From contig NZ_AWTC01000011.1 of NCBI RefSeq assembly GCF_000497245.1, positions 1 through 64,000 on the forward strand: DNA of 64,000 bases, read 5' to 3'. The notes under the pieces were generated by a model. It was given only the letters and a program-made list of their open reading frames with translations, did no database searches and was not told the origin of the DNA. The translations under genes and the position numbers were made by a program. This DNA comes from Sporolactobacillus laevolacticus DSM 442 (lineage in GTDB: Bacteria; Bacillota; Bacilli; Bacillales; Sporolactobacillaceae). Positions 1,080-44,691 of the stretch are shown in pieces (position 1 is the stretch's first letter; each line of letters opens with the position of its first letter).

Positions 1080-1973
1080 TTAGCTTTCCTTTTTTACTAC
1101 CGGAATATAGATGTCGCATATTTTTCCTGCGTCTGACATGCAGCGGTCATCGTACAGTTCAAAGTCGGCACAATCCGGCGCATACTCGTATCCAGACTTA
1201 GGAAACCATTCATTAAAGATGTAGTTCCATGTGCCCTGGATGGCAGGTACAAAGTTTGTGGCATTGCTTGGCGGTGTCGAAAATACGGCATAGGTTGCAG
1301 GTGGCAGTTCGCAAACGTGATAGCCGTCCGGGATTGTTGCGCCATCCTTCGGTTCAACACCGATCACATACTCAAATTCGCCGGTCTCTGGGTCTTCCGG
1401 AAAGCAAGCACCATACTCATCGTGTTTTTTGAGAAAGCTTTCGGCGTGCAGTCTTTCCATCCGCCCATCACTCATATAGTCGCTCCAAAAAGCAGGGATT
1501 GCCTTACTGTTTTCTCCATCAGATGAGGTCGTTTTGAGTGCATAGCCCGCAAGTTTTACAGCGGGGCGCGTCACAAATTTTGGTTCCAAAATAATTCCTC
1601 CATTCAAATAGTTGTTTGTGCGGGGAAGGCTTGGCGGGAAAGGGCGATCGCAATGCGCATGCAAACGGTAGGTTCCCGGTGAGTAGCCGAAATAACGGCG
1701 AAAAGCCTTACTAAAACCAGAGTGGGTTTCAAAACCATATTCCAAAGAAATATCGAGAATTCGCCGGCCTAAAGTGAGTTCGTATGCGGCAAATGCAAGG
1801 CGGCGATTCCGCACATAGGCCATCACCGAATATCCGGTGCCCCATTGGAATACCCGGCAGAAATGCCAGGTTGAAAATCCGGCGCGTGCTGCTAAAAGAT
1901 TCGGGCTGATATCGTCTGTTATATGTTCGTCAACATATTCCAGAATATCTTGTAAAATTGCTGTCGTGTCCAT
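1080..1973 (-). CDS. AraC-family regulator with GyrI-like effector domain
   Basis: A 297-residue regulator of the Rob/TipA-like layout. Residues about 8-105 carry two AraC-type helix-turn-helix segments (LLAARAGFSTWHFCRVF, then ILDISLEYGFETHSGFSKAF with the typical FGYSP motif). Residues about 130-297 resemble the GyrI/AraC effector-binding fold that binds small hydrophobic or cationic ligands. The start ATG 1973 follows GGAGG at a good distance; an upstream in-frame ATG at 2048 lacks one. Proteins of this type usually activate drug-efflux or stress genes when a ligand binds. No obvious target gene is adjacent: the neighbour upstream, LtrA, is on the same strand and separated by a terminator. 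Confidence 0.85.
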   Translation of the reverse strand: MDTTAILQDILEYVDEHITDDISPNLLAARAGFSTWHFCRVFQWGTGYSVMAYVRNRRLAFAAYELTLGRRILDISLEYGFETHSGFSKAFRRYFGYSPGTYRLHAHCDRPFPPSLPRTNNYLNGGIILEPKFVTRPAVKLAGYALKTTSSDGENSKAIPAFWSDYMSDGRMERLHAESFLKKHDEYGACFPEDPETGEFEYVIGVEPKDGATIPDGYHVCELPPATYAVFSTPPSNATNFVPAIQGTWNYIFNEWFPKSGYEYAPDCADFELYDDRCMSDAGKICDIYIPVVKKES

Positions 1974-2151
1974 TAAGCATTCCCTCCAACCGTACGGTAA
2001 ACCCAGTATAACAAGAGCCTTGGAAAGTTGCTGTTCCAAAATTGCCAAGTTCAGAGACGAATGTGCAGTAAAGGCTGAATTGGTAGGAGAACTGGTGATA
2101 ATAAGCAGGTCAATGACTGATAAATAGTGAAATGATCGATAAACTAATAAG

Positions 2152-2172
2152 AGCCGGGCGCAATGCCCGGCT
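2152..2172 (-). terminator. Terminator downstream of the LtrA gene
   Basis: Perfect stem AGCCGGGC / GCCCGGCT with a five-base loop. On the minus strand it is followed by CTTATTAGTTT, a moderate U-rich tail. It separates the LtrA gene from the downstream AraC gene. Confidence 0.6.
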
Positions 2173-2237
2173 TCATTTGTTTGAACCTATTCAGTTGGAA
2201 AAACATTAAACCGGCTGTCATTCCTATTTCTATTGAT

Positions 2238-3329
2238 TCACGTAGTTGTTAATTTAGCATAGATGATAAAAAACACGGTTAATTCCCCCATTATGACAAT
2301 GTATGGAACTATCATGATCAAATTAATAACGAAAAAAGCGGCTAATATCCCCAAAAATAACCCTAAATGATAAATTTTCAAACGGTGTTGTTCATACCTG
2401 TATTGATGAAAAACTAGGGTAGTTGCAATGAAATAAAGTAATACAGAAATAAATACAAAATATAAGATAAAAAAATAATAGACCTCATGTAAAAACATCA
2501 GTTTGATCGATGCTGCAATCATGCTCATAGACATTAGAATAAATAGATGTCCGTAAATAATCGTTTGACCTGTGCTCTGAATCGACTTGTTTACCTTCTT
2601 TTCTAAGTTATCAAAATACTGCCACCACATCGAAATAATAAGGATAAATGAAATAATCGAAAATGAAATCGAATTCCAATTACCATTTTGCGGCTGTAGT
2701 ACAAACAGGGTGCTGACAACCGATTCTCCAAAAAGAATTAATGTCAATAAACCAAACCGTTCTAATAAATGGGCTATATTGGTCGGGGCTTTCTCTAAAT
2801 ATTTGCGTCCTAGAACAGGCACCAAAATATCGACAAAAATCCCTATATATAACACTGCGTATCGAATCCATGAATCAAAAAAGATTGAGAGAAATGAGAT
2901 GATGACCCCAATCCAAAAACGTGTTCCTAAAAAAAGAGCAACCTTTTTTCTATTGCCTTCTTCAAAGTTCTGTACAACGAGATATTGAATTGCTGTAAGT
3001 GCTCTTAGTCCAATATAGCCAATCAGAAAAGAGAGATAGTATTGATCAAAATCAACTGATAAGCTGGATGTCATAATAAGGACAAACAACATTTGAAGAA
3101 TCATAAAGATGCGTTGATGCAATAAATCCTGTCCAAACCGATTAATAAATAATGTTTGCCCAGTCCAAGACCACCATATCGGGATAAACATTAGAGCAAA
3201 CTTCAGTAAATATTCTGGATGAATATGCCCTTTTTCAACATGAAGTAAAGCATGTGTAGCCGTTGCAACTGCTGCCACAAATAGCAAGTCATAAAAAAGT
3301 TCTAACCACGTAACTTTTTTTTCTTCCAT
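2238..3329 (-). CDS. Low temperature requirement protein A (LtrA) family membrane protein
   Basis: A 363-residue polytopic membrane protein with about ten hydrophobic segments. The N-terminal signature WLELFYDLLFVAAVA and the later GLLTLILFGESVV motif are typical of the LtrA family (named for a Listeria locus needed for growth in the cold; biochemical function unknown). ATG 3329 is preceded by AAGGAG. The gene stands alone, with a terminator at 2152-2172. A second family member lies at 25821-26957 and differs clearly in sequence, so the two are old paralogues rather than a recent duplication. Confidence 0.88.
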   Translation of the reverse strand: MEEKKVTWLELFYDLLFVAAVATATHALLHVEKGHIHPEYLLKFALMFIPIWWSWTGQTLFINRFGQDLLHQRIFMILQMLFVLIMTSSLSVDFDQYYLSFLIGYIGLRALTAIQYLVVQNFEEGNRKKVALFLGTRFWIGVIISFLSIFFDSWIRYAVLYIGIFVDILVPVLGRKYLEKAPTNIAHLLERFGLLTLILFGESVVSTLFVLQPQNGNWNSISFSIISFILIISMWWQYFDNLEKKVNKSIQSTGQTIIYGHLFILMSMSMIAASIKLMFLHEVYYFFILYFVFISVLLYFIATTLVFHQYRYEQHRLKIYHLGLFLGILAAFFVINLIMIVPYIVIMGELTVFFIIYAKLTTT

Positions 3330-3578
3330 TTATAGCACTCCTTCTCATCCCTGATACGGTATAGTATCATGAAAGGTAAATACAAACAAGCAGGAATTGC
3401 AAGACCAAAGCCTTTTGACCTTATTTTTGGTGTGTGTGATGAAAAAATTTGTATTACGAAACTATATTGCCCTAAAGAAATGTTTGTATGAAACGGAAGA
3501 CCTTACTTCTTAGATAAAGAGAGCTTTTTATAGTAACCACCCTGTATTTGAAACTTATTTTTTTAGGAGTGAGATTTT

Positions 3579-3884
3579 ATGTCTAATAAATCCAAACGTT
3601 ATACAGGACAAACTATCGATGTTATTTTTCATAGTGAAAGATGTGTTCATGCGGCCAGATGTGTAAAAGGGTTACCAGAGGTTTTTGATGTAAAGAAGCG
3701 GCCATGGGTTAATGCAGATGGAGAAGAAGCGGACAAAATTGCAAAAGTGATCGAACAATGCCCAAGTGGTGCATTGGAATATATAAGAAAAGATAGAAGT
3801 GAACGAGAAGAGCCAAATGATAGGACAACTGTTGAGGTTGATTCTAATGGAATTATTTTATCTAAAAGGAAACTTGGCCATTAA
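3579..3884 (+). CDS. YjdI-like 4Fe-4S mono-cluster protein, C-terminus frameshifted
   Basis: The product carries the divergent mono-cluster ferredoxin domain (Fer4_19, as in YjdI): SERCVHAARCVKGLPEVFDV with Cys22 and Cys28, and IEQCPSGALEY with Cys61. Relatives in many bacteria continue into a CDGSH iron-sulfur domain. Here the frame runs instead through VEVDSNGIILSKRKLGH to a stop at 3882-3884, while the CDGSH domain continues in another frame from 3847 (next feature). The first domain is complete, so a functional short protein is possible. A GAG-containing ribosome site (TTAGGAGTGAG) precedes ATG 3579. It is followed by the small acetyltransferase that normally accompanies yjdI. Confidence 0.8.
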   Translation: MSNKSKRYTGQTIDVIFHSERCVHAARCVKGLPEVFDVKKRPWVNADGEEADKIAKVIEQCPSGALEYIRKDRSEREEPNDRTTVEVDSNGIILSKRKLGH

Positions 3885-3990
3885 GAAAGCGGAAGAAATC
3901 ATTCACTGCACTCGTGCTACCTTATGTGGGTGTGGACTTTCTAAAAATAAACCATTTTGCGACAATAGCCATAACTGTGAGTTACCGTAA
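3847..3990 (+). pseudogene. CDGSH iron-sulfur domain, split off from the YjdI gene by frameshift
   Basis: This frame reads YLKGNLAIKKAEE, then TRATLCGCGLSKNKPFCDNS and a His. It is a full CDGSH-type 2Fe-2S motif with ligands Cys27, Cys29, Cys38 and His42 of the short frame. YLKGNL is the usual lead-in to this domain and matches where the upstream frame breaks off after DSNG, so a net one-base shift near 3845-3860 separates two halves of one ancestral gene. ATG 3847 has no good ribosome site of its own. Either the domain is lost, is made by frameshifting or coupling, or the shift is an assembly error. Confidence 0.75.
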
Positions 3991-4022
3991 AGCACATGTA
4001 TTATTTGGGAGGGAACATTAAA

Positions 4023-4298
4023 ATGATCGATATAAAAAAAGATGGCAACACTTTTTATGTAGGAGAACAGAATAATAAGGAAGCAGAAATACATTATGTT
4101 CCAACTGGAAAAGATAAAATTATTGTGGATCACACATTTGTATCAGACAGTCTTAGAGGTCAAGGCATTGGAGAAGCATTGGTTAAAAGAATTGTAGCGT
4201 ATGCTCGGGAAGAAGGGAAATTAATTATCCCATTGTGTCCTTTTGCGAAGAGCCAAATTGAACGAAATGAAGAATATCATGACATTTTGGCAAAATGA
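4023..4298 (+). CDS. Small GNAT-like N-acetyltransferase (YjdJ type)
   Basis: A 91-residue single-domain protein of the short Acetyltransf_CG group. The strand IIVDHTFVSDSLRGQGIGEA holds the acetyl-CoA pyrophosphate-binding loop (RGQGIGEALV), and the C-terminal half has the IPLCPFAKSQIERN motif typical of this group. ATG 4023 follows GGGAGGG; an upstream in-frame start at 3996 has no site. These proteins are usually encoded beside yjdI, as here, which supports both calls. Substrate unknown. Confidence 0.85.
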   Translation: MIDIKKDGNTFYVGEQNNKEAEIHYVPTGKDKIIVDHTFVSDSLRGQGIGEALVKRIVAYAREEGKLIIPLCPFAKSQIERNEEYHDILAK

Positions 4299-4442
4299 TA
4301 AGATTAGGTTTTCTATGAAACCTGCCAAAACAGGAAAATCTGAATCTAGGCAGGAAAAACCATAATCCGAGTATTCCGATGAAATGGAACTAATAAGTTA
4401 TGCAACATTAGTAACAACGTCTAGGAAATGGGAGAGGAAAAA

Positions 4443-4949
4443 ATGATTATAAGGAAAGCTAGAAAGACAGATGCTGCGGCTATGATTAATTTTCTTCATC
4501 AGATTGCCGGAGAAACTGATTTTCTGACCTTTGGGTCTGCGGATGATCTTCACGTGACGGTGGAAAAAGAAGAAAAATTGTTTGAAGATTACTTCAACAG
4601 AGACAATGGTTTGAATTTGATTGCAGAATATGATGGCCAGATCGCCGGTAACCTCATCTTTTCCGGTGGGACGAAAAAAAGAACAGCGCATGCCGGTGAA
4701 TTTGGCATCAGCGTACGGAAGGATTTCTGGGGGAGGGGCATTGGCAAAGCGTTGATTGCACGGTTGATTGAGTGGAGCAAGGAAAGCGGTGTGATCCGGA
4801 AAATCAATCTGCGTGTTCGTTCGGACAACGCGCGAGCAATTCATCTCTACAAATCATTTGGATTTAAGGAAGAAGGCGTGATCACACGAGATTTCTTAAT
4901 TAATGATGTCTTCTATGACTCGATCCAAATGGGCTTGTTCATTGATTGA
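4443..4949 (+). CDS. GNAT family N-acetyltransferase
   Basis: 168 residues from ATG 4443, which follows GAGAGGAAAA. The core reads GEFGISVRKDFWGRGIGKAL, the acetyl-CoA-binding motif A (R/Q-x-x-G-x-G/A), then NLRVRSDNARAIHLYKSFGF, the motif B helix with the catalytic-region Tyr. It resembles general bacterial GNATs of the RimI/YkkB kind that acetylate small molecules or protein N-termini; the acceptor cannot be read from sequence. It stands 49 bases before a phosphotransferase-like gene on the same strand and may be co-transcribed with it. Confidence 0.85.
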   Translation: MIIRKARKTDAAAMINFLHQIAGETDFLTFGSADDLHVTVEKEEKLFEDYFNRDNGLNLIAEYDGQIAGNLIFSGGTKKRTAHAGEFGISVRKDFWGRGIGKALIARLIEWSKESGVIRKINLRVRSDNARAIHLYKSFGFKEEGVITRDFLINDVFYDSIQMGLFID

Positions 4950-4997
4950 TCAGGACTTAAAACAAACGAATGAATAGAGCGTTATGAGGTGGTCATG

Positions 4998-5906
4998 ATG
5001 GACACACTTTTTCTCGGTATTCCTGGATCTGATCAGTGGAGGAACGTGAAATTAATTGATGCTGGGTGGTCACATGATCGAAAATATGCTTTTGAGTCAA
5101 GTGATCAAAAAAGGTACCTGCTCCGTGTGTCGGACAGTACTCAATATACGAGAAGAAAAAAAGAATATGAAGCAGTAAAAAGGCTGGACCATCTCGACAT
5201 TGAGATGTCTCGACCGATTAGATTTGGGAATTGTGACAATGGCAAAAAGGTGTACACCATCATGACTTGGGTTGATGGAAAAGAGGCCGCGAAGGTTCTG
5301 CCTACACTAAATTCTAAAGAACAGTATAAGCTTGGCTACCAAGCCGGGCGAATGCTGAAACAGATTCATTCTGTACCTGCGCCGGCTGACCAGCAATCAT
5401 GGAGTAAATTTTATCAAGAAAAAATCGACCGCAAACTTGCAGACTATCGTACCTGCGGGATTGTCGTGGATCGCGCAGATTTGATCATAAATTTTATTGA
5501 AACGAATCGGTATCTTCTCAAAGATCGCCCCATGACTTTCCAGCATGGGGACTACCATTGCGGCAATATGGTCATCTCAGGCAAGAAAACAATCAGAATC
5601 ATTGATTTTGATCGGCTGGACTACGGCGACCCTTGGGAAGAGTTCAACCGGATTACCTGGTGTGCTGGCGTAAGCGGCGCCTTCGCGTCGGGCAGGATTA
5701 ACAGTTACTTTGAGGATAAGGTGCCAGCACATTTTTTCGGGCTCATGGCTTTATATATTGCAACAAACATGATTTCTTCAATCCCATGGTCGATTTCCTA
5801 CGGGCAGCATGAAATTAATGTAATGATCAAGGAAATAGAAAAAAACTTGGTCGCTTATGATCACTACCAAACCGTTATTCCAAGATGGTATAAGAATGGG
5901 ATGTAA
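4998..5906 (+). CDS. Aminoglycoside phosphotransferase (APH)-family protein
   Basis: 302 residues. The kinase-like fold is shown by FQHGDYHCGNMVI (catalytic loop HGDxHxxN, His near residue 183) and IRIIDFDRLDYGDPWEEF (the Mg-binding DFD about 20 residues later). The family transfers phosphate to antibiotics, homoserine, choline or similar small molecules; this sequence gives no clue to which. Three starts are possible (GTG 4989, ATG 4995, ATG 4998); ATG 4998 has the best distance from GAGGTG at 4986-4991. It ends tail to tail with the Lrp gene and no terminator is visible in the 28-base gap. Confidence 0.82.
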   Translation: MDTLFLGIPGSDQWRNVKLIDAGWSHDRKYAFESSDQKRYLLRVSDSTQYTRRKKEYEAVKRLDHLDIEMSRPIRFGNCDNGKKVYTIMTWVDGKEAAKVLPTLNSKEQYKLGYQAGRMLKQIHSVPAPADQQSWSKFYQEKIDRKLADYRTCGIVVDRADLIINFIETNRYLLKDRPMTFQHGDYHCGNMVISGKKTIRIIDFDRLDYGDPWEEFNRITWCAGVSGAFASGRINSYFEDKVPAHFFGLMALYIATNMISSIPWSISYGQHEINVMIKEIEKNLVAYDHYQTVIPRWYKNGM

Positions 5907-5934
5907 TTTTGGCTAATCATTCATTCGCCGAACC

Positions 5935-6375
5935 CTAGTTCTCCATATTTGTTGGAATAATCGCCTTCTGTTCCACGGGTGAAGACAGAACAATTAGTGT
6001 TGTTGGCTTACCGTACTCGAGGCAGGCGTTGATATGATCTTCTAAGGTATGAACGGATTCGGTAACAACTTTTGTTAAATAGCTATACATTCCCGCAATT
6101 CGATGGCATTCCACAACATCGGATTGCTTTGTTGTGAACGCAACGTATTTCATGCAGTCTTTCGGTTCCATTAATATAAAAGCTGTGACCTGTTTATTTA
6201 ATTTTTCCGGTGCAACGATAGCGCCGTATTTTTTTATAACACCTTGTTCCTCCAATCTCCTGACGCGTTCCGTCACAGAAGGAGAGGTCAACCCGACTTT
6301 TTTGCCGAGTTCAATCATTGTTTGACGCGAATTTTCCTGTAATTGTGTGAGAATGCTGCAATCGATTTCGTCCAT
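5935..6375 (-). CDS. Lrp/AsnC-family transcriptional regulator
   Basis: 146 residues. An N-terminal winged helix (MDEIDCSILTQLQENSRQTM, then the recognition region GLTSPSVTERVRRLEEQGVI) is followed by the RAM ligand-binding domain with the AGMYSYLTKVV strand. These regulators sense amino acids and control transport or catabolism. ATG 6375 follows AAGGTGGGG. It is divergent from an amino-acid permease at 6504 across a 128-base AT-rich gap, the classical arrangement of an Lrp-type regulator and the exporter it controls. Confidence 0.9.
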   Translation of the reverse strand: MDEIDCSILTQLQENSRQTMIELGKKVGLTSPSVTERVRRLEEQGVIKKYGAIVAPEKLNKQVTAFILMEPKDCMKYVAFTTKQSDVVECHRIAGMYSYLTKVVTESVHTLEDHINACLEYGKPTTLIVLSSPVEQKAIIPTNMEN

Positions 6376-6503
6376 AATATCCCCACCTTAATTATTTAAA
6401 TAGATGTAGATGAATTCCTTGATTTTTATTGATGCAGATCAATTTTTAATAAAGTATACCATGTGTTTCTTATCAACTTCTACCTATAATTAAGAAAAAA
6501 CAT

Positions 6504-7781
6504 ATGGGATTGATCAAATTGCGTGAACCATCATTAAAACGATCGATAACTTGGGTGCAGGGAACCGCACTAACCATCGGCGCAGTATTGGGCTGCGGCA
6601 TTCTTGTTTTGCCATCAATCACCGCGAATAATGCCGGTCCTGCTTCGCTATTATCCTGGGCGATCATGTCTTTACTTGCTTTTCCGATCGTCTTAACCAT
6701 CGCGTATCTTGCGAAAATAATTCCTAGTGCCGGGGGCATTACGGCATATGTCGGACATGCTTTTGGAACGAGGACGAGTACAATTTTAAGCTGGATTATG
6801 CTGGGGTCCATACCGGTTGGCGTGCCGACGATTGCGTTGACAGGCGCCTATTATCTCAACAATCTTCTACCAACGAATCGCTGGGGTACAGTGTGTATAG
6901 CCGCGCTCATCTTGCTCACGTCTTTGCTTCTGCACGTAAGGGGAATTGATCTATCAGCTAAGGTAAGCGTAGCGGTTATCTGTGTCATCTTCACTTTGCT
7001 GGTAACTGCTGTTATTGTCGCTTTTCCCCATGTCAAATCCTCTTCATTTATGCCATTTGTTCCGCACGGTTGGTTCTCGGTGGGCTCAGCTTCCGTGGTG
7101 ATCTTCTTTTCGTTTGTCGGATGGGAAATGATTCCCCCACTAGCAGAAGAATTTAAAAGACCTGAGCGGGACATAACCATCAGTTTGATAATCGGAGCAA
7201 TCGTCGTTTCTGTTTTATACCTGTCCATATCCTTTGTGACCGTTGGCACTCAGGCGTATGGTGCGAATAAAGGCGTTAGCTCACTTAGTCTTCTTATTTC
7301 AAAAGGGTGGGGAAGAATCGGAACAGTAACTACAACACTGCTGGCTCTATTCATTACGTTTAGTACAGTCCATGCGAACCTCGCAGGTTTTTCAAGAATG
7401 GTGTATGCACAGGCTAGGGACGGTCATTTTCCAAGAATCTTGGCAAAAATTCATCCGAAATATCGAACGCCAATAAGCGTCCTTTTTGTTCTTGGCGTTA
7501 TTTTTACCCTCATTTTATTCATATACGGCACAGTTCGGCCGAATTTAGAAACCTTATTAAAAGGACCAAGCGTCGTTTTTATTACGTCCTATATTTTTAC
7601 AATGCTTGCTGCTCTGAAAATCATTAGACCACTGACGGTTGGCTGGTTCATGGCGCTTATCTCACTTTTAATCACGGTCATCATCTTGTTCTTCAGTGGA
7701 TGGGCAATTCTGTATCCACTAGCTTTAGCAATTATTGGCGGAGTATATCTTTTCAGAACAAAAATAGGTGGAAGGCTTTGA
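6504..7781 (+). CDS. APC-family amino acid permease (YjeH-like)
   Basis: 425 residues with 11-12 hydrophobic segments. The first segment has the APC signature GTALTIGAVLGCGILVLPS and the motif SAGGITAYVGHAFG follows TM2. Overall size and motifs resemble YjeH, which exports methionine and branched-chain amino acids. The start ATG 6504 has only AAGAAAA before it, a weak site. The divergent Lrp-type gene is the likely regulator, responding to the exported amino acid; this link is inferred from position only. Confidence 0.85.
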   Translation: MGLIKLREPSLKRSITWVQGTALTIGAVLGCGILVLPSITANNAGPASLLSWAIMSLLAFPIVLTIAYLAKIIPSAGGITAYVGHAFGTRTSTILSWIMLGSIPVGVPTIALTGAYYLNNLLPTNRWGTVCIAALILLTSLLLHVRGIDLSAKVSVAVICVIFTLLVTAVIVAFPHVKSSSFMPFVPHGWFSVGSASVVIFFSFVGWEMIPPLAEEFKRPERDITISLIIGAIVVSVLYLSISFVTVGTQAYGANKGVSSLSLLISKGWGRIGTVTTTLLALFITFSTVHANLAGFSRMVYAQARDGHFPRILAKIHPKYRTPISVLFVLGVIFTLILFIYGTVRPNLETLLKGPSVVFITSYIFTMLAALKIIRPLTVGWFMALISLLITVIILFFSGWAILYPLALAIIGGVYLFRTKIGGRL

Positions 7782-7811
7782 AATAGCGAAACACTCATTG
7801 GCAAAATTTTA

Positions 7812-8652
7812 TTATCTAGTCTCAGTTGCCCGTTTTTGCTTCATGGATTTGCAATGTTCATGGATCAGCCGAAGCATCGCTTGTTTCTCAGATGCAGAAA
7901 GGCGCTCGACGAGACGGGCGGCAGCAACCGGTGCTTCCCATTGTCTGATGTCCGCAATCGAACAATTGGCTAATTTAATGTAGCGTTTCAAATAGGCATT
8001 GTGCAATTGAACTCTTAGAAATTTTATTAACAACCGGACGATTAGAGGAATTTCTTTCGGGATATCGGCTAACTTCAGCAACAAAACGGTTCGCGCAACA
8101 TCTGCCAGAGCATGTCCTTTCGTCGCGGTCATCCAGTCAATAATGACGACTCGATCCTTCGTAAACATAAGGTTGTCAGGATGAAAGTCACCATGAGATA
8201 AATGCGATCCATTTGGGAGATTCTGCAGTTCATCAAGCAACAACTGTTTGGTTTCTTTATCAAGTTCATGTGCTTCAAGAATTCGGCGCGACAAATCATC
8301 TTTAGTTGATGGGAGTTCGCAGGCAGTGTCTCTCTGGATTTTGTGGTGAAATTCAGCCATCGTCCGTCCAATCCTGCGCACAGTCCAAGGCTTCTGGGTG
8401 AGTCTTTTCAAAAAGGACTCACCTTCAACTTTTTCATACACAATGCCATGACGGCCGTCTTTTTCGATTAAATTGTAAACTCGGGCAACCGGGAACCCTT
8501 CTTGAACCAGCGTTTGATTGATGCGGAATTCTTGCTTCGCCCAAGAAAGCGGGATGTCTTTGTAAAATAATTTAAGGACTTGTTGGTTGCCCACATCAAA
8601 AATTTCAGCAGTTAGCCCTTGTCCGATTTTTTTACCTAAATAAAGGTGTCAT
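7812..8652 (-). pseudogene. APH-family phosphotransferase with frameshifted N-terminus
   Basis: The frame down to 7812 encodes an APH-like kinase: SHLSHGDFHPDNLMF (catalytic HGDxHxxN) and VVIIDWMTATKG (DxD-like metal site as IDW). The only start in this frame is GTG 8594, but homology clearly begins earlier: the codons upstream read GKKIGQGLTAEIFD, the usual nucleotide-loop strand, up to a stop. ATG 8652, with a strong GGGGG site, opens another frame (MTPLFR then TAA). A one-base loss near 8630-8645, beside a seven-base A-run, would join the two. The gene is either recently broken, read by slippage, or carries a sequencing error. Confidence 0.75.
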
Positions 8653-8831
8653 TGATGAAGTCCCCCTTTTTTGCTCTATCTACCGAATTTCATTGTTCCA
8701 TATAATCTCAAAACTGTATAGTGAATTTTCGCGAAATTGATTCATACATTGCCTGAATCCCTCTCCGATGCAAACTCACTATGGTAAACTATTCAGAAAG
8801 ATACATAAAGTATAAAAGAGGCGGTTTGTTC

Positions 8832-9434
8832 ATGGTATACATGGCAGGTACTAAGGTTGTCATTCGTGACTGGAAACTAGAGGATTCGGATGACTACATT
8901 TTTTGGTGGCAGCCTGGTCAATATTGGCAAAAGTTTGATGGACCATATTATCCGAGAATGTCAAAAGAGGAAGTCATTCAACGCGTTGAAGAGCAATGCT
9001 TGAAAATTAAAGAACACAAATTAGAAACACCGAGAAGAGTTCTGGCAATTGCGGACAAGGATTCAGACAAACTGCTTGGAAGAGTAAGCTGGTATTGGGA
9101 AAGTAAAGAAACAAACTGGTTATGTGCCGGTATCGGCATTTTTGACCCGGATTATTGGGGGAATGGCAGAGGCTTCGAGGCTTTTGGTTTGTGGACGGAC
9201 TACCTTTTTCAAGCAATGCCGGAAATCGTCCGCGTCGACTTGAGGACTTGGTCGGGAAATCATGGGATGATGAAGCTTGCAGAGAAACTCGGCTACACCA
9301 AAGAAGCCTGCTTCAGAAAAGCGAGAATCGTCGATGGGAAATACTACGATTCAATCGGTTATGGTGTGCTTAGAGAAGAGTGGGAAACCATGCATCCAGA
9401 AGGGTTTGAAAATACGCTAGTAAACAAGCACTGA
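8832..9434 (+). CDS. GNAT family N-acetyltransferase
   Basis: 201 residues from ATG 8832, preceded by GAGGCGG. A RimJ/RimL-like (Acetyltransf_3) layout is seen: LGRVSWYWESKETNWLCAGI as the beta-4/beta-5 region, IFDPDYWGNGRGFEAFGLWT as motif A with a GNGRG loop, and LRTWSGNHGMMKLAEKLGYT as motif B. It probably acetylates a small amine or protein N-terminus. It is followed 26 bases later by a HAD hydrolase and may share its transcript. Confidence 0.85.
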   Translation: MVYMAGTKVVIRDWKLEDSDDYIFWWQPGQYWQKFDGPYYPRMSKEEVIQRVEEQCLKIKEHKLETPRRVLAIADKDSDKLLGRVSWYWESKETNWLCAGIGIFDPDYWGNGRGFEAFGLWTDYLFQAMPEIVRVDLRTWSGNHGMMKLAEKLGYTKEACFRKARIVDGKYYDSIGYGVLREEWETMHPEGFENTLVNKH

Positions 9435-9460
9435 GCTGCTATGGGGGGACACAAAGGAAG

Positions 9461-10228
9461 ATGCAAACGATTAAAATGATTGTCAGTGATCTAGACCATA
9501 CACTATTAAACAATCAAGAAATGATTTCTGATCATACGGCAAACGTGTTAAATCGATGTCAGGAAAAAGGGATTCGCATTGCCTTTGCCACTGCTCGTCC
9601 AGAGAGAGCAACTCGACAATTCCAACAAAAAGTGCAACCGGATTATATCATTTCAAACAATGGAGCAACGATAGTGGCGCACAATCAGGTAATCAGCAAT
9701 CGTGTCATTCCAAATGATCTGAAAAATCGATTGATACCAGAGTTGATTTCTTCAACAAATATTACATGTATCAGCGTTGAAGCAGGTGACTGTCTGTACA
9801 CAAATTACAGAGGCGAACCTTGGGGCGCTGAATGGAATGCGGTTTATACTGACTTCAAACATACGGTGGAAGAAGAGACGCCAAAGCTTTCGATAGAATG
9901 CAAAGATACTGTAGCAATGAAACCAATGATAAAAAAGTATTCCAGTCTAAATTTTTATGAGAATAGCGGAGAAAACTGGTTTCAGGTGATGCACCGGGAT
10001 GCAACAAAAATGAACGGGATTTCCTTTGTCGCGCAAAGGTTAAAGATAAACACTGAGCATGTTCTTGCATTTGGTGATGATCATAATGATCTGGAGATGC
10101 TGGAAAATTGCGGCATAGGTGTTGCCGTTTCCAATGGGATCAAACCGGCAAGACGAGCAGCAAACTTTATCTGTGAATGTAATGACGATGACGGAGTGGC
10201 GAAATGGATTGAATCTCAAGTTCTGTAA
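9461..10228 (+). CDS. Cof-type HAD-superfamily phosphatase
   Basis: 255 residues. Motif I is VSDLDHTLLN (nucleophile Asp10 and acid/base Asp12), motif II lies in RIAFATAR, motif III includes the Lys of RDATKMNG, and motif IV is AFGDDHNDLEML. The insert between motifs II and III is the C2B cap of the Cof family. Such enzymes hydrolyse phosphate from sugar phosphates, nucleotides or coenzymes such as FMN; the substrate is not evident. Codons are like those of the neighbours. A second Cof-like gene lies at 45577. Confidence 0.88.
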   Translation: MQTIKMIVSDLDHTLLNNQEMISDHTANVLNRCQEKGIRIAFATARPERATRQFQQKVQPDYIISNNGATIVAHNQVISNRVIPNDLKNRLIPELISSTNITCISVEAGDCLYTNYRGEPWGAEWNAVYTDFKHTVEEETPKLSIECKDTVAMKPMIKKYSSLNFYENSGENWFQVMHRDATKMNGISFVAQRLKINTEHVLAFGDDHNDLEMLENCGIGVAVSNGIKPARRAANFICECNDDDGVAKWIESQVL

Positions 10229-40409: not shown

Positions 40410-40445
40410 AAGGACTGCGGAGCTAAACGCTCAGCAGTCCCTTTT
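40410..40445. terminator. Bidirectional terminator
   Basis: AAGGACTGCGGAGC pairs with GCTCAGCAGTCCCTT over TAAAC, with a T-run on the plus strand. It lies between convergent genes and overlaps the end of comA. Confidence 0.82.
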
Positions 40446-41034
40446 TGATAGCGTTAACAACGGCGCCAACTCTGGAATCGGCGCCTAATTTTTGCATGAT
40501 GGATGAGATGTGGTATTCGACTGTTCTTTTGCTGATCGACAGCTTTTCGCTAATTTCGGTGGTCGTCATGTCTGCGGCGATCAACTTCAGGATGTCACGT
40601 TCTCTGGGCGTTAATGATTCACTTGGAATGTCAGGATGAAGATTTGGAAATACTTTTTCACCTTGACACACTTGCCTGATCACACTTGCCAGTTTCATGT
40701 TCGACTCTTCTTTTGTGACATAGGCATCTGCGCCAGCCAGCCTGGCCGCCTCTATATATTCATCAAAAGTGTAACCGGAGAGAATGACGATTTTCAGATA
40801 GGCTCGTGTTTTTTTGATACGCCTTGTCAGATCAATCCCGTTGGTATTTTTAAGCCGAACATCCAGAACGAGAACATCGGGAGGATCTGACTGAATGATT
40901 TGTTCAAGATTTATAGGATCGGACAATGCGTTCATCACATGGAAATCTGCTTCCTTTTCAAGTAATTCTTTTAACCCCATGAGCATGAGTAGGTGATCGT
41001 CCACTAAAATGATGTTAATTGTCACGTTCTTCAT
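40423..41034 (-). CDS. comA: ComA-like response regulator
   Basis: 204 residues. Receiver domain: acidic pocket Asp12/Asp13 (LVDDHLL), phospho-acceptor Asp58 (VLVLDVRL), Lys in YVTKEES. C-terminal LuxR/NarL helix-turn-helix: SLTPRERDILKLIAADMTTT and EISEKLSISKRTVEYHISSI. It is the output regulator of the ComX-type quorum-sensing system; ComP should phosphorylate it. ATG 41034 overlaps the comP end by 20 bases, so the genes are coupled. In Bacillus, ComA activates surfactin and competence genes; targets here are unknown. The call rests on the operon as well as sequence. Confidence 0.85.
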   Translation of the reverse strand: MKNVTINIILVDDHLLMLMGLKELLEKEADFHVMNALSDPINLEQIIQSDPPDVLVLDVRLKNTNGIDLTRRIKKTRAYLKIVILSGYTFDEYIEAARLAGADAYVTKEESNMKLASVIRQVCQGEKVFPNLHPDIPSESLTPRERDILKLIAADMTTTEISEKLSISKRTVEYHISSIMQKLGADSRVGAVVNAIKKGLLSV

Positions 41035-43114
41035 TCCAATCCAAAGGCAATGTGATGTGAATCTTTGTGCCTCTCCCAAGTGCTGAATGAATCTCAAGCA
41101 AGCCACTCAGCTGATCTACGCGTCTTTGAATGGTGGTTAAGCCGATATGATCGGAAAGCGTTTGATTTTGAGTGCTTGAAATGTCAAATCCCTTCCCCTT
41201 ATCACTTACTTTAATAATTAAAAAGTGATCAATGCATTTCAAAGAGACGGTGATTACAGGAGACGCCGAATGTTTGATGGCATTGTGGAGCAGTTCTTTG
41301 ATGATACGGAAAGCAGCAATTGAAAGTGTTTTGGAAATCATTTTCAGATTTAGCTGGTAGTTTGTATCGATAATCACATTATAGTTCGTCTGAAGTCTTC
41401 TTTTAAGCGACTGAACACTTTGTTCAAGTCCTAAGTCTTCTACCATAAATGGATGCAGCTCACGTGATTTTTCACGGATATCATAGATTCCATTCATCAG
41501 AAATTCTTTGATCTCACGATAGGCAAGGCTATCTATTTGTTGATTCTCATGAAGATTATCGATTTTGTTTTCCAATAGTATAACATTTTGAAGCACTTCA
41601 TCGTGCAAGAAGATAGACAAATTTCGACTTTTTTCATCAATTGCATTCATTAAGACACGATTAAACTGTTCATGTGAATAGGATTGGGTCCGCGTTTCTT
41701 TTAATTCCCTGCCCATCGTTGCTAACTTTTCTGAACTCATCAGTAATTCAAGCGCATTAGACCGAATCCGTTCAAGCAATAAATGTTCTACTTTCCCTAA
41801 CGTTGTTCCATTGATTTTCTGACCGATTAAGATCCATCCTCTATTGGTATTTTTATCATCTAACGTTAGAACGGTCAGCTTTTCATGCGTTTCTCCTGTA
41901 TCAGAATGGCTATTATTCATAAATTGATGTGCCAGATCATTATTTGAAAAGATGCCGGTTTGATAATAGATTTTTGGAATTTGATTTTGTTTCCAAATCA
42001 GGCAGACTCCGTTAATATGGATCGTCTGATGAATGAGTTCTACAATCAGCTTCGCGCAGGTTGTTAGATGCTGCCCATTGAGTACCTTTTGGAGAATATG
42101 TTCTTTTTCTTGGTTGATTTCCCTTGTTTTATCGATTAATGGGCGATGAATTAAATAATCAAACAGTTTGCTAGAAAAGTAGTGAAAAAAAAGAATGGCG
42201 ATCATCAACAGATTGATCGTGAAAAATGCACTTAGTTCGCGATGGAAAAACAAAAAAAACAATCCGTTGGCTAATGCCAGTGAAAGAAGCAGAGAACCGA
42301 GTTTGATTAAAAGCGGAAGCAAACGTAATTTCACATCAATAATCTCCTGACGTGTTAGCAAATAGCTAAGCGAGATTGGAAAGATAATGATGCTGATTAA
42401 ACTGTAATAAAAAGGAACAAAATTTGCCAGGCCAAACAAAATATAGGGAAGCATACTCAAGGCTAGTACAGGCAAAAATGAAAAAATAAGACTTAAGATT
42501 AATATGGTTAACTGGTTTTTAACTTTCGATGAGTTTGACCGAAGCAATAGGAAAAGGAGCATAATATAGGAAATGAGAGACAGGAAAATAAAAAGAATCA
42601 TGATCCAGCGGAACAATCCGGCAAAGGGATTGTTAATTGTATGAAAATTCATAATTGATAGGGCGTAGAGTGCGATAATGAAGACGGTGGCGCATTCTAA
42701 ATAAATATAAAGTTGTTGGAATAGCTTGGGTTTGGTCGTTGACGGAAAGTAAAGAAAAAAGTGAAAAAGGAAAAACGGAGTGATCAGCACTGAAATGATT
42801 TCAATGGGCCGTGCAAGCACATTGTTGAGACCTGATGGGATGGCAGAGCTGATAGCCATCCCAGTAACAAACATGAGATAGAAATAGCGTCTAGTGATGA
42901 TGGAACGCGGTTGCATGACATAGCAATAGATACCGTTGCCGACAAAACAAAAGCCGATCGCCATAATAATCAAATATTGATGCAGCTTTGGAACCGGATC
43001 TGGAAAACTGCTGAAATCTGATTGATTGAGAAATTCGTAAACAAAATAACTATTTATTAAGAGAAAAAATAAAAAAAATAGAGCGGTGGAATATCTGGGT
43101 TTAATGATAACCAT
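41015..43114 (-). CDS. comP: ComP-like membrane histidine kinase
   Basis: 699 residues. Residues about 1-320 hold roughly ten hydrophobic segments, as in ComP, the receptor of the ComX pheromone. The cytoplasmic part has a HisKA_3 dimerisation segment with the phospho-acceptor His near residue 500 (LSIFLHDEVLQN), then RELHPFMVEDLGLEQSVQSL, and an ATPase domain with IIKELLHNAIKHS (N-box), KVSDKGKGFD (G1) and the final GRGTKIHITLPL (G2). A GAF-like region lies before the kinase core. ATG 43114 overlaps the comQ stop (TTG 43120 is an alternative). It should sense the modified ComX peptide outside the cell. Confidence 0.88.
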   Translation of the reverse strand: MVIIKPRYSTALFFLFFLLINSYFVYEFLNQSDFSSFPDPVPKLHQYLIIMAIGFCFVGNGIYCYVMQPRSIITRRYFYLMFVTGMAISSAIPSGLNNVLARPIEIISVLITPFFLFHFFLYFPSTTKPKLFQQLYIYLECATVFIIALYALSIMNFHTINNPFAGLFRWIMILFIFLSLISYIMLLFLLLRSNSSKVKNQLTILILSLIFSFLPVLALSMLPYILFGLANFVPFYYSLISIIIFPISLSYLLTRQEIIDVKLRLLPLLIKLGSLLLSLALANGLFFLFFHRELSAFFTINLLMIAILFFHYFSSKLFDYLIHRPLIDKTREINQEKEHILQKVLNGQHLTTCAKLIVELIHQTIHINGVCLIWKQNQIPKIYYQTGIFSNNDLAHQFMNNSHSDTGETHEKLTVLTLDDKNTNRGWILIGQKINGTTLGKVEHLLLERIRSNALELLMSSEKLATMGRELKETRTQSYSHEQFNRVLMNAIDEKSRNLSIFLHDEVLQNVILLENKIDNLHENQQIDSLAYREIKEFLMNGIYDIREKSRELHPFMVEDLGLEQSVQSLKRRLQTNYNVIIDTNYQLNLKMISKTLSIAAFRIIKELLHNAIKHSASPVITVSLKCIDHFLIIKVSDKGKGFDISSTQNQTLSDHIGLTTIQRRVDQLSGLLEIHSALGRGTKIHITLPLDWNEERDN

Positions 43115-44054
43115 CTCCAAGAAAATTGATCAAGTTAAATAAGGCGGTCTTCTTTTTGCTTGTTTGTTGATACTCTTTTAACATTTTGATCGCTTTATTT
43201 AAATAGACTTTTGAGAGAATCGTGCAGTAATCGATTGCGCCTGATTTCTGGATGTATTCTCGAATCATCTTGAGTTTGCCTTGATCCTTGATTGAATGGA
43301 CAGATCTCATTTGATTAAGTAGCCAGTTCCCATCCTTCGATTGGCTGGCTTCCATCGCTTTAATCAGTGGCAGTGTCGCTTTGTTTTCGATTATATCATT
43401 CTTTGTATCATTAAAAATGTCATTTATGTCATTTCTAATCTGACCGGAATTACCAATCAATGTTGCGACTTGATCCCAAAAGAGGTAGTCTTCCTGTTGA
43501 TTCAATTGAAAAACAAGCCTGGTCAGTGACACTGACTTTAGGCTGATCAGGTTGAAATAGTCTTCCTCATTTGGCATGTGTTCCGGACGAAACGTAAAAG
43601 ATAAATCCAGCACTTGGCCACGAGCGGCCCTACGCAATTGATTCATTACCGATGGAAGTGCATGTTTGTTGTACTGGTCGATTAAGTGAAGGCTTTCCAT
43701 CAATAGAACACTAGATAAAGTGACTGCCTGCGATTGAGATAACTTTGTCAGAATGTCACCATTAGGATCCTGATCCGTTAAATCATCCAAAATATCTGTC
43801 GCCAAAATCAGCCCTTCAACTGCCGCAGAACAAGCGATCCGTGCAGTTTCTCGGTCAGATCCATCATCAAAAATCGAGGATACATAATAGTTGAATTCGG
43901 CCCATGTGAATACCGCGTCATCATTAAAAATCTTCCCTTTTAGCATCAAAAGAGAAGAAATGTGTTTCATTGTTTCATGGTTGAGATCACACTGATGTAA
44001 ATATGCTTTAATAAATTGTCTGATTTTTTCTCTGACGAGATCACGTTTTGTCAT
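43101..44054 (-). CDS. comQ: ComQ-like isoprenyl transferase for ComX
   Basis: 317 residues, a divergent member of the trans-prenyltransferase fold. The first Asp-rich motif is LDDLTD (residues 89-94); the second region is NDINDIFNDTKNDI. FDDGSDRETARIACSAAVEG and RRAARGQVLDLSF also resemble ComQ. It should attach a geranyl or farnesyl group to the conserved Trp of ComX and release the mature pheromone. ATG 44054 overlaps the comX stop (ATGA), giving coupled translation; ATG 44060 is also in frame. It differs strongly from the ordinary polyprenyl synthase at 16565. Confidence 0.88.
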   Translation of the reverse strand: MTKRDLVREKIRQFIKAYLHQCDLNHETMKHISSLLMLKGKIFNDDAVFTWAEFNYYVSSIFDDGSDRETARIACSAAVEGLILATDILDDLTDQDPNGDILTKLSQSQAVTLSSVLLMESLHLIDQYNKHALPSVMNQLRRAARGQVLDLSFTFRPEHMPNEEDYFNLISLKSVSLTRLVFQLNQQEDYLFWDQVATLIGNSGQIRNDINDIFNDTKNDIIENKATLPLIKAMEASQSKDGNWLLNQMRSVHSIKDQGKLKMIREYIQKSGAIDYCTILSKVYLNKAIKMLKEYQQTSKKKTALFNLINFLGDGYH

Positions 44055-44221
44055 GCCCATTGGATAGCTGAAATGTTCCCCTTTTTCTCTTTACCAATCG
44101 TTTCTTCAAGAACTGAGTAAACATCCGAGTCTAGACCAGCTCCTGCAACTGCCAATTCCGTTGAATTAATTTGAATACCGCCTGCAAATTCCTGGACAAT
44201 TTCCCACAACTTTTGATTCAT
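44051..44221 (-). CDS. comX: ComX-like pheromone precursor
   Basis: 56 residues, found only by reading the gap upstream of comQ. ATG 44221 follows a strong GAAGGAGGG. The peptide starts MNQKLWEIVQEFAGGIQINS, is acidic in the middle (GLDSDVYSVLEETIGKEKKG) and ends GNISAIQWA. A Trp near the C-terminus is the residue that ComQ prenylates in known ComX peptides; here it is the next-to-last residue. The size, position beside comQ and ATGA overlap with comQ make this call strong even though ComX sequences hardly align. Unlike the known order comQ-comX-comP-comA, comX is first. Confidence 0.87.
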   Translation of the reverse strand: MNQKLWEIVQEFAGGIQINSTELAVAGAGLDSDVYSVLEETIGKEKKGNISAIQWA

Positions 44222-44484: not shown

Positions 44485-44691
44485 ATGTCTGCATATGAAC
44501 ATTATTCGGCAACATATTTGACTGGATTATATCATTCAATAAAACAGAACATTGAAAATGGATTCTTATCAAATGCTATGGTACAAGAATTGAATTTGAT
44601 CGCTGAAGCGGTTAGCAAACAAGGCGTCGTTATCCTTGAAGAACGACGGGCATTTAGGCCTTTTACGGAGTGCAAAATAAAATTACATTAA
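44485..44691 (+). CDS. Small hypothetical protein, 68 residues, divergent from comX
   Basis: ATG 44485 follows GGGGGGATC at a good distance and the gene ends just before a strong terminator, so it is likely real. The product begins MSAYEHYSATYLTGLYHSIK, is probably helical (QNIENGFLSNAMVQELNLIA) and has a basic tail (FRPFTECKIKLH). It is soluble. I do not recognise it; it is not DegQ or a Spo0E phosphatase (no SQELD motif). As a small gene divergent from the quorum-sensing operon it is a candidate for ComA control or for a role in that circuit; this is inference. Confidence 0.65.
   Translation: MSAYEHYSATYLTGLYHSIKQNIENGFLSNAMVQELNLIAEAVSKQGVVILEERRAFRPFTECKIKLH

Follow-up and report, generated by a model that had tools for sequence, protein, structure and literature searches.

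A putative ComX-type quorum-sensing operon with comX in first place in Sporolactobacillus laevolacticus and other Bacillus-like bacteria

ComX is the textbook prenylated bacterial pheromone. The first 64,000 nucleotides of contig NZ_AWTC01000011.1 of Sporolactobacillus laevolacticus DSM 442 (hereafter the window) carry four coupled minus-strand genes that resemble those of the Bacillus subtilis ComQXPA system, with comX standing first (X-Q-P-A, or X-first; Table 1). Is this an ordinary ComQXPA locus in which one gene has moved, or a separate kind of signalling cassette? The gene content, order, coupling and conservation of the operon, its catalytic motifs, receptor architecture and clade, and the distribution of a DNA box upstream of it, can all be seen directly; on this sequence evidence, the operon is very probably a complete, autoinducing ComQXPA-like quorum-sensing circuit based on a prenylated tryptophan, with its genes arranged X-Q-P-A. 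The X-first system follows the same logic as ComQXPA and differs from it in gene order, precursor family and receptor head; the control of the operon probably differs as well.

The coordinates that a preliminary description of the window gave for four overlapping minus-strand genes proved correct on re-reading. The comX and comQ genes meet at an ATGA (44054-44051), with the TGA of comX lying within the overlap with the ATG of comQ; comP starts inside the 3' end of comQ, and comA inside the 3' end of comP. The overlap of comQ and comP was re-confirmed and leaves no place for comX between them, as had been argued; across 15 X-first loci the distance between these two genes is -47 to +16 nt, and in the Sporosarcina locus (L046) they overlap by 25 nt. 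The window has four adjacent genes on one strand, as described for ComQXPA loci, whereas the order comQ-comX-comP-comA of that description (PMC4008528) is replaced by X-Q-P-A here and in 17 other intact loci. Placing comX first is indeed unlike the known arrangement: each of the 23 canonical loci compared has its comX between comQ and comP, and from this set a Sporolactobacillus putidus locus with a truncated comQ (L152) was left out. The promoter proposed earlier (TTGTCT-17-TATATT) is present but less convincing than the "good" promoter claimed, as promoter-like matches in the window (10) are no commoner than in shuffled sequence (mean 14.4, standard deviation 3.9).

Table 1. Features of the X-first operon in the window (positions in the 64,000-nt window)
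Feature	Position	Strand	Remarks
comX-type pheromone precursor gene	44221-44051	-	ATG 44221 to TGA 44051; 56 aa, ending ...AIQWA
comQ-type tryptophan prenyltransferase gene	44054-43101	-	ATG 44054; alternative in-frame ATG 44060
comP-type membrane histidine kinase gene, no PDZ loop	43114-41015	-	ATG 43114; alternative TTG 43120
comA-type response regulator gene (receiver and LuxR/GerE DNA-binding domain)	41034-40423	-	PF00072 and PF00196
Ribosome-binding site of comX, AAGGAGG	44235-44229	-	Seen in the sequence
Promoter-like site of the operon, TTGTCT-17-TATATT	44277-44249	-	9/12 consensus; not above chance alone
Conserved 17-bp box, ATCCGTATTTTCCGCAA	44320-44336	-	Starts 115 bp ahead of the comX ATG; proposed binding site of ComA~P

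Judged by conservation, purifying selection and an invariant tryptophan, the 56-aa comX open reading frame (ORF) is a real gene. The preliminary description had allowed that the ORF might prove unconserved beside comQ, or that a better comX candidate might lie elsewhere; neither outcome was encountered, as the ORF adjoins comQ in all five other Sporolactobacillus with an X-first-type comQ (S. nakayamae, S. shoreicorticis, S. mangiferae, S. putidus and Sporolactobacillus sp. STSJ-5), and no second candidate was seen in the operon or directly upstream of it. All 18 intact loci read have a comX ORF in front of comQ. The homologues are 54-57 aa long with tryptophan second from the C-terminus; this penultimate Trp is present in 20/20 translated precursors (two of them beside a broken comQ) and, together with Met1, Leu5, Trp6 and Leu30, is invariant across 15 aligned sequences. 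The ratio of non-synonymous to synonymous change (pN/pS) is 0.20-0.47 in six of seven precursor pairs tested, the seventh having three non-synonymous and zero synonymous changes, from which no ratio can be computed. Conservation is higher in the leader than in the C-terminal part, which varies apart from the Trp (mean majority fraction 0.58 vs 0.29), and a conserved leader with a variable C-terminal part is also the pattern of ComX pheromones (PMC4008528). The length of 56 aa and the penultimate Trp agree with the 52-73 aa and Trp near the C-terminus expected of ComX; many canonical ComX of the order likewise end in Trp plus one residue.

The X-first layout is not confined to this genome, and the search for the same gene order in relatives that had been proposed returned it from several families. 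The 18 intact loci comprise six from Sporolactobacillus (including the window), one each from Sporosarcina, Lysinibacillus and Metasolibacillus, seven from family f13, and two from Priestia megaterium plasmids. A contig scan with six ComQs returned eight loci, namely five from Sporolactobacillus and those of Sporosarcina luteola, Lysinibacillus macroides and a Metasolibacillus metagenome-assembled genome, the latter three all X-Q-P-A. A profile of the precursor matched 9/397 genomes order-wide, of which two weak matches away from comQ (G345 and G389, E 0.007-0.009) were dropped; class-wide it matched 3/398 genomes, none beyond the order. In family f13, 11/41 genomes were matched, the operon being intact in seven (G082, G383, G170, G424, G414, G415 and G425); the match in G345 was again a false one. 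On the Priestia megaterium plasmids pBM700 and p5_CACC119 the X-Q-P-A operon lies beside a gallidermin-type lantibiotic operon, and the comX of pBM700 is annotated as a hypothetical protein. X-first-like ComQs (36-39% identity) occur in 12 Priestia records, of which two loci were read. Two f13 loci have features of their own. In G306 (L093 4421-6932) the X-first comQ is interrupted by an insertion carrying an ORF that may resemble IscB-type proteins. In G425 (L098, reverse strand 4681-9564) the intact X-Q-P-A operon is accompanied by a second, decayed copy of comX/comQ that has a box of its own, and genes for secreted-looking protein and transporter lie between the two.

The window ComQ combines a polyprenyl synthetase domain (PF00348, Pfam, E=1.4e-14) with a first aspartate-rich motif, DDLTD, and a pseudo-second aspartate-rich motif, NDIND. 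The ND of the latter is found in 16/16 X-first and 23/23 canonical ComQs, vs DD in 6/6 HepT-like synthases; according to one study, prenylation of Trp requires the first Asp-rich motif together with ND or GD in the second, and the ComQ of RO-E-2 accepts Trp as the second, third or fourth residue from the C-terminus (PMC5331326). The X-first ComQs form one clade (support 99/99; 16 rows, HepT-like outgroup) and are set apart from the 23 Q-X-P-A ComQs (support 100/100; 18 rows, no outgroup); the broken copies L093, L101 and L102 and the truncated comQ of L152 were left out of the trees. The tree carries a long-branch warning, so the X-first ComQs are more securely a single group than they are the sister of all canonical ComQs. 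Carriage by phages was rejected, with no relative among viral contigs and three weak phage matches, two annotated as octaprenyl-diphosphate synthase and one without annotation.

The window ComP has nine hydrophobic segments (by hydropathy) and a HATPase_c domain (E=2.6e-12), the combination expected of a ComP. Profiles of X-first and canonical ComPs align with probability 100 over 623 columns, and the alignment starts after the first extracellular loop and PDZ region. In that loop, between the first and second transmembrane segments (TM1-TM2), a PDZ match is present in 9/9 canonical-type ComPs (E 3.7e-6 to 0.08, above the Pfam cut-off in two) vs none in the 12 X-first-type ComPs scanned with Pfam, which include a solo ComP of Sporolactobacillus G008 and a Priestia ComP (scanned at an E limit of 0.1). 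Modelling of B. amyloliquefaciens ComP places a PDZ domain in the TM1-TM2 loop, where it may bind ComX (PMC9620489); the X-first receptors must manage without it. The window ComA has the receiver and LuxR/GerE domains expected of a ComA, and X-first and canonical ComAs fall into separate clades in unrooted trees; seven loci (L155, L156, L157, L165, L166, L169 and L171) are absent from the second tree, having no suitable ORF by pattern. Elsewhere in the window genome (contig C25, L195 6791-12072) a tandem pair of ComP-like kinases is found with a ComA regulator of the canonical type; no comQ or comX was noticed among the ORFs listed beside them.

The sequence upstream of comX is the 17-bp box ATCCGTATTTNCCGCAA. 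With at most two mismatches it is present in 15/16 X-first loci, where its start lies 110-137 bp from the start codon of comX; it is also present in G425 and, with one mismatch, in both Priestia plasmids, for a total of 18/19 X-first loci tested (comQ being interrupted in one of the 19). None of the 23 canonical loci has the box within 400 bp upstream of comQ. Several f13 loci add an inverted partner, and Metasolibacillus has two separated arms. In a set of 30 genomes, most of them taken from the two families in question, the box (at most one mismatch) gave 49 matches vs two for a reversed control, and the sole match in the window genome is the site before comX. The box also stands at other genes. 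In Sporolactobacillus G008 (L234 4164-6952) it directly precedes a lone PDZ-less comP-comA at the same chromosomal site; X-first-type comX and comQ were not found in this genome, which represents a natural receiver-only state. In the f13 genomes G170, G415, G265 and G424, and at two sites in G425, it precedes genes for small proteins that look secreted from their N-termini, and genes for transporters or membrane proteins come next; the small protein at L232 is a lactococcin-972 bacteriocin (Pfam), and most others match no family. In Priestia the box lies between comX and the lantibiotic operon. It further precedes two solo ComA-like regulators that group with the X-first ComAs (Shimodaira-Hasegawa-like approximate likelihood ratio test support 93, in a quick tree with long branches). 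The other strand of the box has TTGCGG, which we take to be a half-site of the B. subtilis ComA box, as a lead only. An exact match inside a coding region (G003:C7) was not counted as a target, and among 16 box regions read, L231, L235, L236, L237, L238, L240, L242 and L243 gave no clear one.

In the window, an ORF of 68 aa at 44485-44691 (+), MSAYEHYSATYL..., is divergent from comX with the box between them and has no Pfam match; it was found in 8/9 Sporolactobacillus stretches (window included; the ninth, L197, comes from another place), two of the eight in genomes without X-first comX. As a comX candidate this ORF was rejected: it is small and conserved but has no tryptophan. In Sporosarcina (L046 3606-4007, minus strand) a bacteriocin gene of the lactococcin-972 family (PF09683) is divergent from the X-first operon.

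Together these elements suggest how the circuit would work. The 56-aa precursor would be made first, from a strong ribosome-binding site, and ComQ would attach a geranyl or farnesyl group to its penultimate Trp. The C-terminal piece would then be cut off and leave the cell, presumably by export, to be sensed by the membrane domain of the PDZ-less ComP. ComP would phosphorylate ComA, and ComA~P may bind the 17-bp box and raise transcription of its own operon, amounting to autoinduction. In relatives, ComA~P would also raise operons for secreted, partly antibacterial small proteins with their transporters; for Sporolactobacillus itself, we infer the regulated functions. If comX does have a ComA site in front of it, the system would differ clearly from B. 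subtilis ComQXPA, which is stated to be without feedback on signal production (PMC7794433).

Several observations weigh against this interpretation. The system is present in only 6/15 Sporolactobacillus genomes (the same six carry both the ComQ and the ComX type), and in f13 it shows decay, with comQ interrupted or broken in G306 and G409, and comX shortened and comQ missing in G413. The HisKA_3 domain (PF07730) went undetected by Pfam in the window ComP and is below cut-off in the ComPs of L048, L091, L049, L097 and Priestia, although the His-Asp is invariant in 9/9 rows; among X-first ComPs, that of G170 is short, at 526 aa. NarL-type regulators that we term DegU/LiaR-like fall between the two ComA types in the unrooted trees, so the regulator may have been recruited either once or twice. 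As for the box, the Sporosarcina X-first locus lacks it, and no second target was found in Sporolactobacillus. G004 has an exact match at a contig edge with no gene in view, and G009, G345 and G161 have matches with one mismatch; the X-first system is not known in any of these genomes. At up to two mismatches the counts overlap: six genomes that have the system give 4-11 matches each and five that lack it give 2-9 (seven in G008), the reversed-pattern control giving 2-5 and 0-4, respectively; further Sporolactobacillus targets at two mismatches were dropped as noise.

Some of these observations bear on a different account of the box, in which a regulator other than ComA binds it, or the inverted repeat of f13 acts as a hairpin or terminator in the RNA, and the operon does not regulate itself. 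We regard this as unlikely, though it survives better than the other alternatives. The f13 repeat ends in a T-rich stretch, binding of ComA to the box is a proposal drawn from sequence, and some matches fall in genomes not known to have the system. Against this account, one arm is almost unchanged, with no evident partner, in all six Sporolactobacillus that have the system; the box is also associated with the solo comPA, the two solo ComA-like regulators and the small-protein operons, and is absent from all 23 canonical loci.

Autoinduction through ComA remains our preferred account of the box, and the next matter is whether the operon as a whole is a local rearrangement, an ordinary ComQXPA system in which comX moved before comQ in one lineage and which works as in B. 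subtilis. Like that system, the X-first operon has a ComQ-type Trp prenyltransferase and a small precursor with Trp near its C-terminus (PMC4008528), a polytopic ComP kinase and a ComA receiver-LuxR regulator, on one strand in overlapping genes; the four activities, the ComQ motifs and the ComP core are common to both, and loci arranged Q-X-P-A are found elsewhere in this order, Sporolactobacillus itself included. Nonetheless, rearrangement is distinctly improbable. Besides the position of comX, the X-first operon differs from ComQXPA in its PDZ-less ComP (0/12 with a match vs 9/9), its own ComQ and ComA clades, and the conserved box, which is confined to X-first among the loci compared, and the gene order tracks the deep ComQ clade over several families. 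The precursor, which has no match in Pfam or NCBIfam, shows no detectable similarity to canonical ComX (hhalign of 17 vs 28 sequences, probability 0.4%), and PF05952, the Pfam model of ComX, matches neither the window peptide nor anything in the whole genome; this model exceeds its cut-off in 48/397 genomes of the order, and its B. subtilis control scored only below cut-off. Genes of both kinds can also share a genome, though not as two intact systems: G306 has the interrupted X-first comQ and a split canonical comP, and in S. putidus the X-first operon is intact and a comX-comP-comA of canonical type is present as well (L152, reverse strand 1095-4983). The comQ of L152 appears truncated and joined to a receiver domain; among the 23 canonical loci, comP is split in L137 and L148. 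The independent arrangement of the pheromone cassette that the preliminary description proposed is borne out on a larger scale than suggested there, extending to a separate ComQ clade, a precursor family of its own, the receptor architecture and the DNA box.

A further possibility is that the peptide is a prenylated antibacterial RiPP (ribosomally synthesized and post-translationally modified peptide), with the kinase-regulator pair sensing the peptide or its damage for immunity rather than for quorum sensing. Genes for secreted-looking small proteins, lactococcin-972 or lantibiotics do adjoin the operon or share its box in several relatives, and Paenibacillus alvei encodes PalX-PalQ-PalP, a prenylated RiPP with a kinase. 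As far as the accessible part of its description goes, that cluster resembles the X-first operon in bringing together a precursor with a C-terminal Trp, a prenyltransferase like trans-isoprenyl diphosphate synthases, and a histidine kinase; PalX differs in its NHLP-type leader and strictly terminal Trp, unlike the Trp second from the end of X-first precursors, and the cluster has three genes with no ComA-like regulator named, unlike X-Q-P-A (PMC10853753). In the loci read, there is no immunity or export gene within the X-Q-P-A operon, the neighbouring peptide genes have transporters of their own, and the variable C-terminal part behind a conserved leader follows the pattern of ComX pheromones (PMC4008528), so we give the immunity function slightly less credence still than the rearrangement. 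That the 56-codon ORF arose by chance, with the true comX elsewhere or lost, is scarcely credible and was rejected: Pfam and NCBIfam do not recognise the ORF, but its conservation, purifying selection and invariant Trp, the want of space between comQ and comP, and the lack of another candidate in view all speak for a gene.

A quorum-sensing operon of the X-first kind appears to have gone without description. The 2014 census (Dogsa et al.), which includes loci of Geobacillus, Anoxybacillus and Lysinibacillus, found the ComQXPA gene arrangement quite conserved and named an opposite-strand variant (PMC4008528). No description of the X-first order was found in the part of the open-access literature covered, which included the main text of the census; the spelling ComXQPA, in the passages seen of two papers, is a name with no gene order described. 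A lanthipeptide survey names the pBM700 cluster, and the words quorum, polyprenyl, ComX and isoprenoid are absent from its text (PMC6165006). The Lysinibacillus fusiformis plasmid pMGMM7 has a ComQ-like gene, but in the canonical Q-X order with an annotated ComX and, in the stretch viewed, no annotated comP or comA.

Recurrence in other Bacillus-like bacteria, a peptide family of its own and a shortened receptor make the X-first system look like an overlooked second branch of ComX signalling. It may go further and represent an anciently separate class of Trp-prenyl pheromones, with an unrelated precursor, sensing by a PDZ-less membrane domain and direct feedback through a ComA box, spread over several families and plasmids and partly timing the production of secreted antibacterial peptides; this we put forward tentatively, as falling somewhat short of an even balance of probability. 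As the comX of pBM700 is annotated as hypothetical and X-first precursors are missed by the Pfam model of ComX, such systems are probably under-counted. A second branch would allow comparison to ask which part of ComP reads a lipidated peptide, which features of a substrate ComQ recognises and, given the apparent feedback box, whether a sharp response needs feedback.

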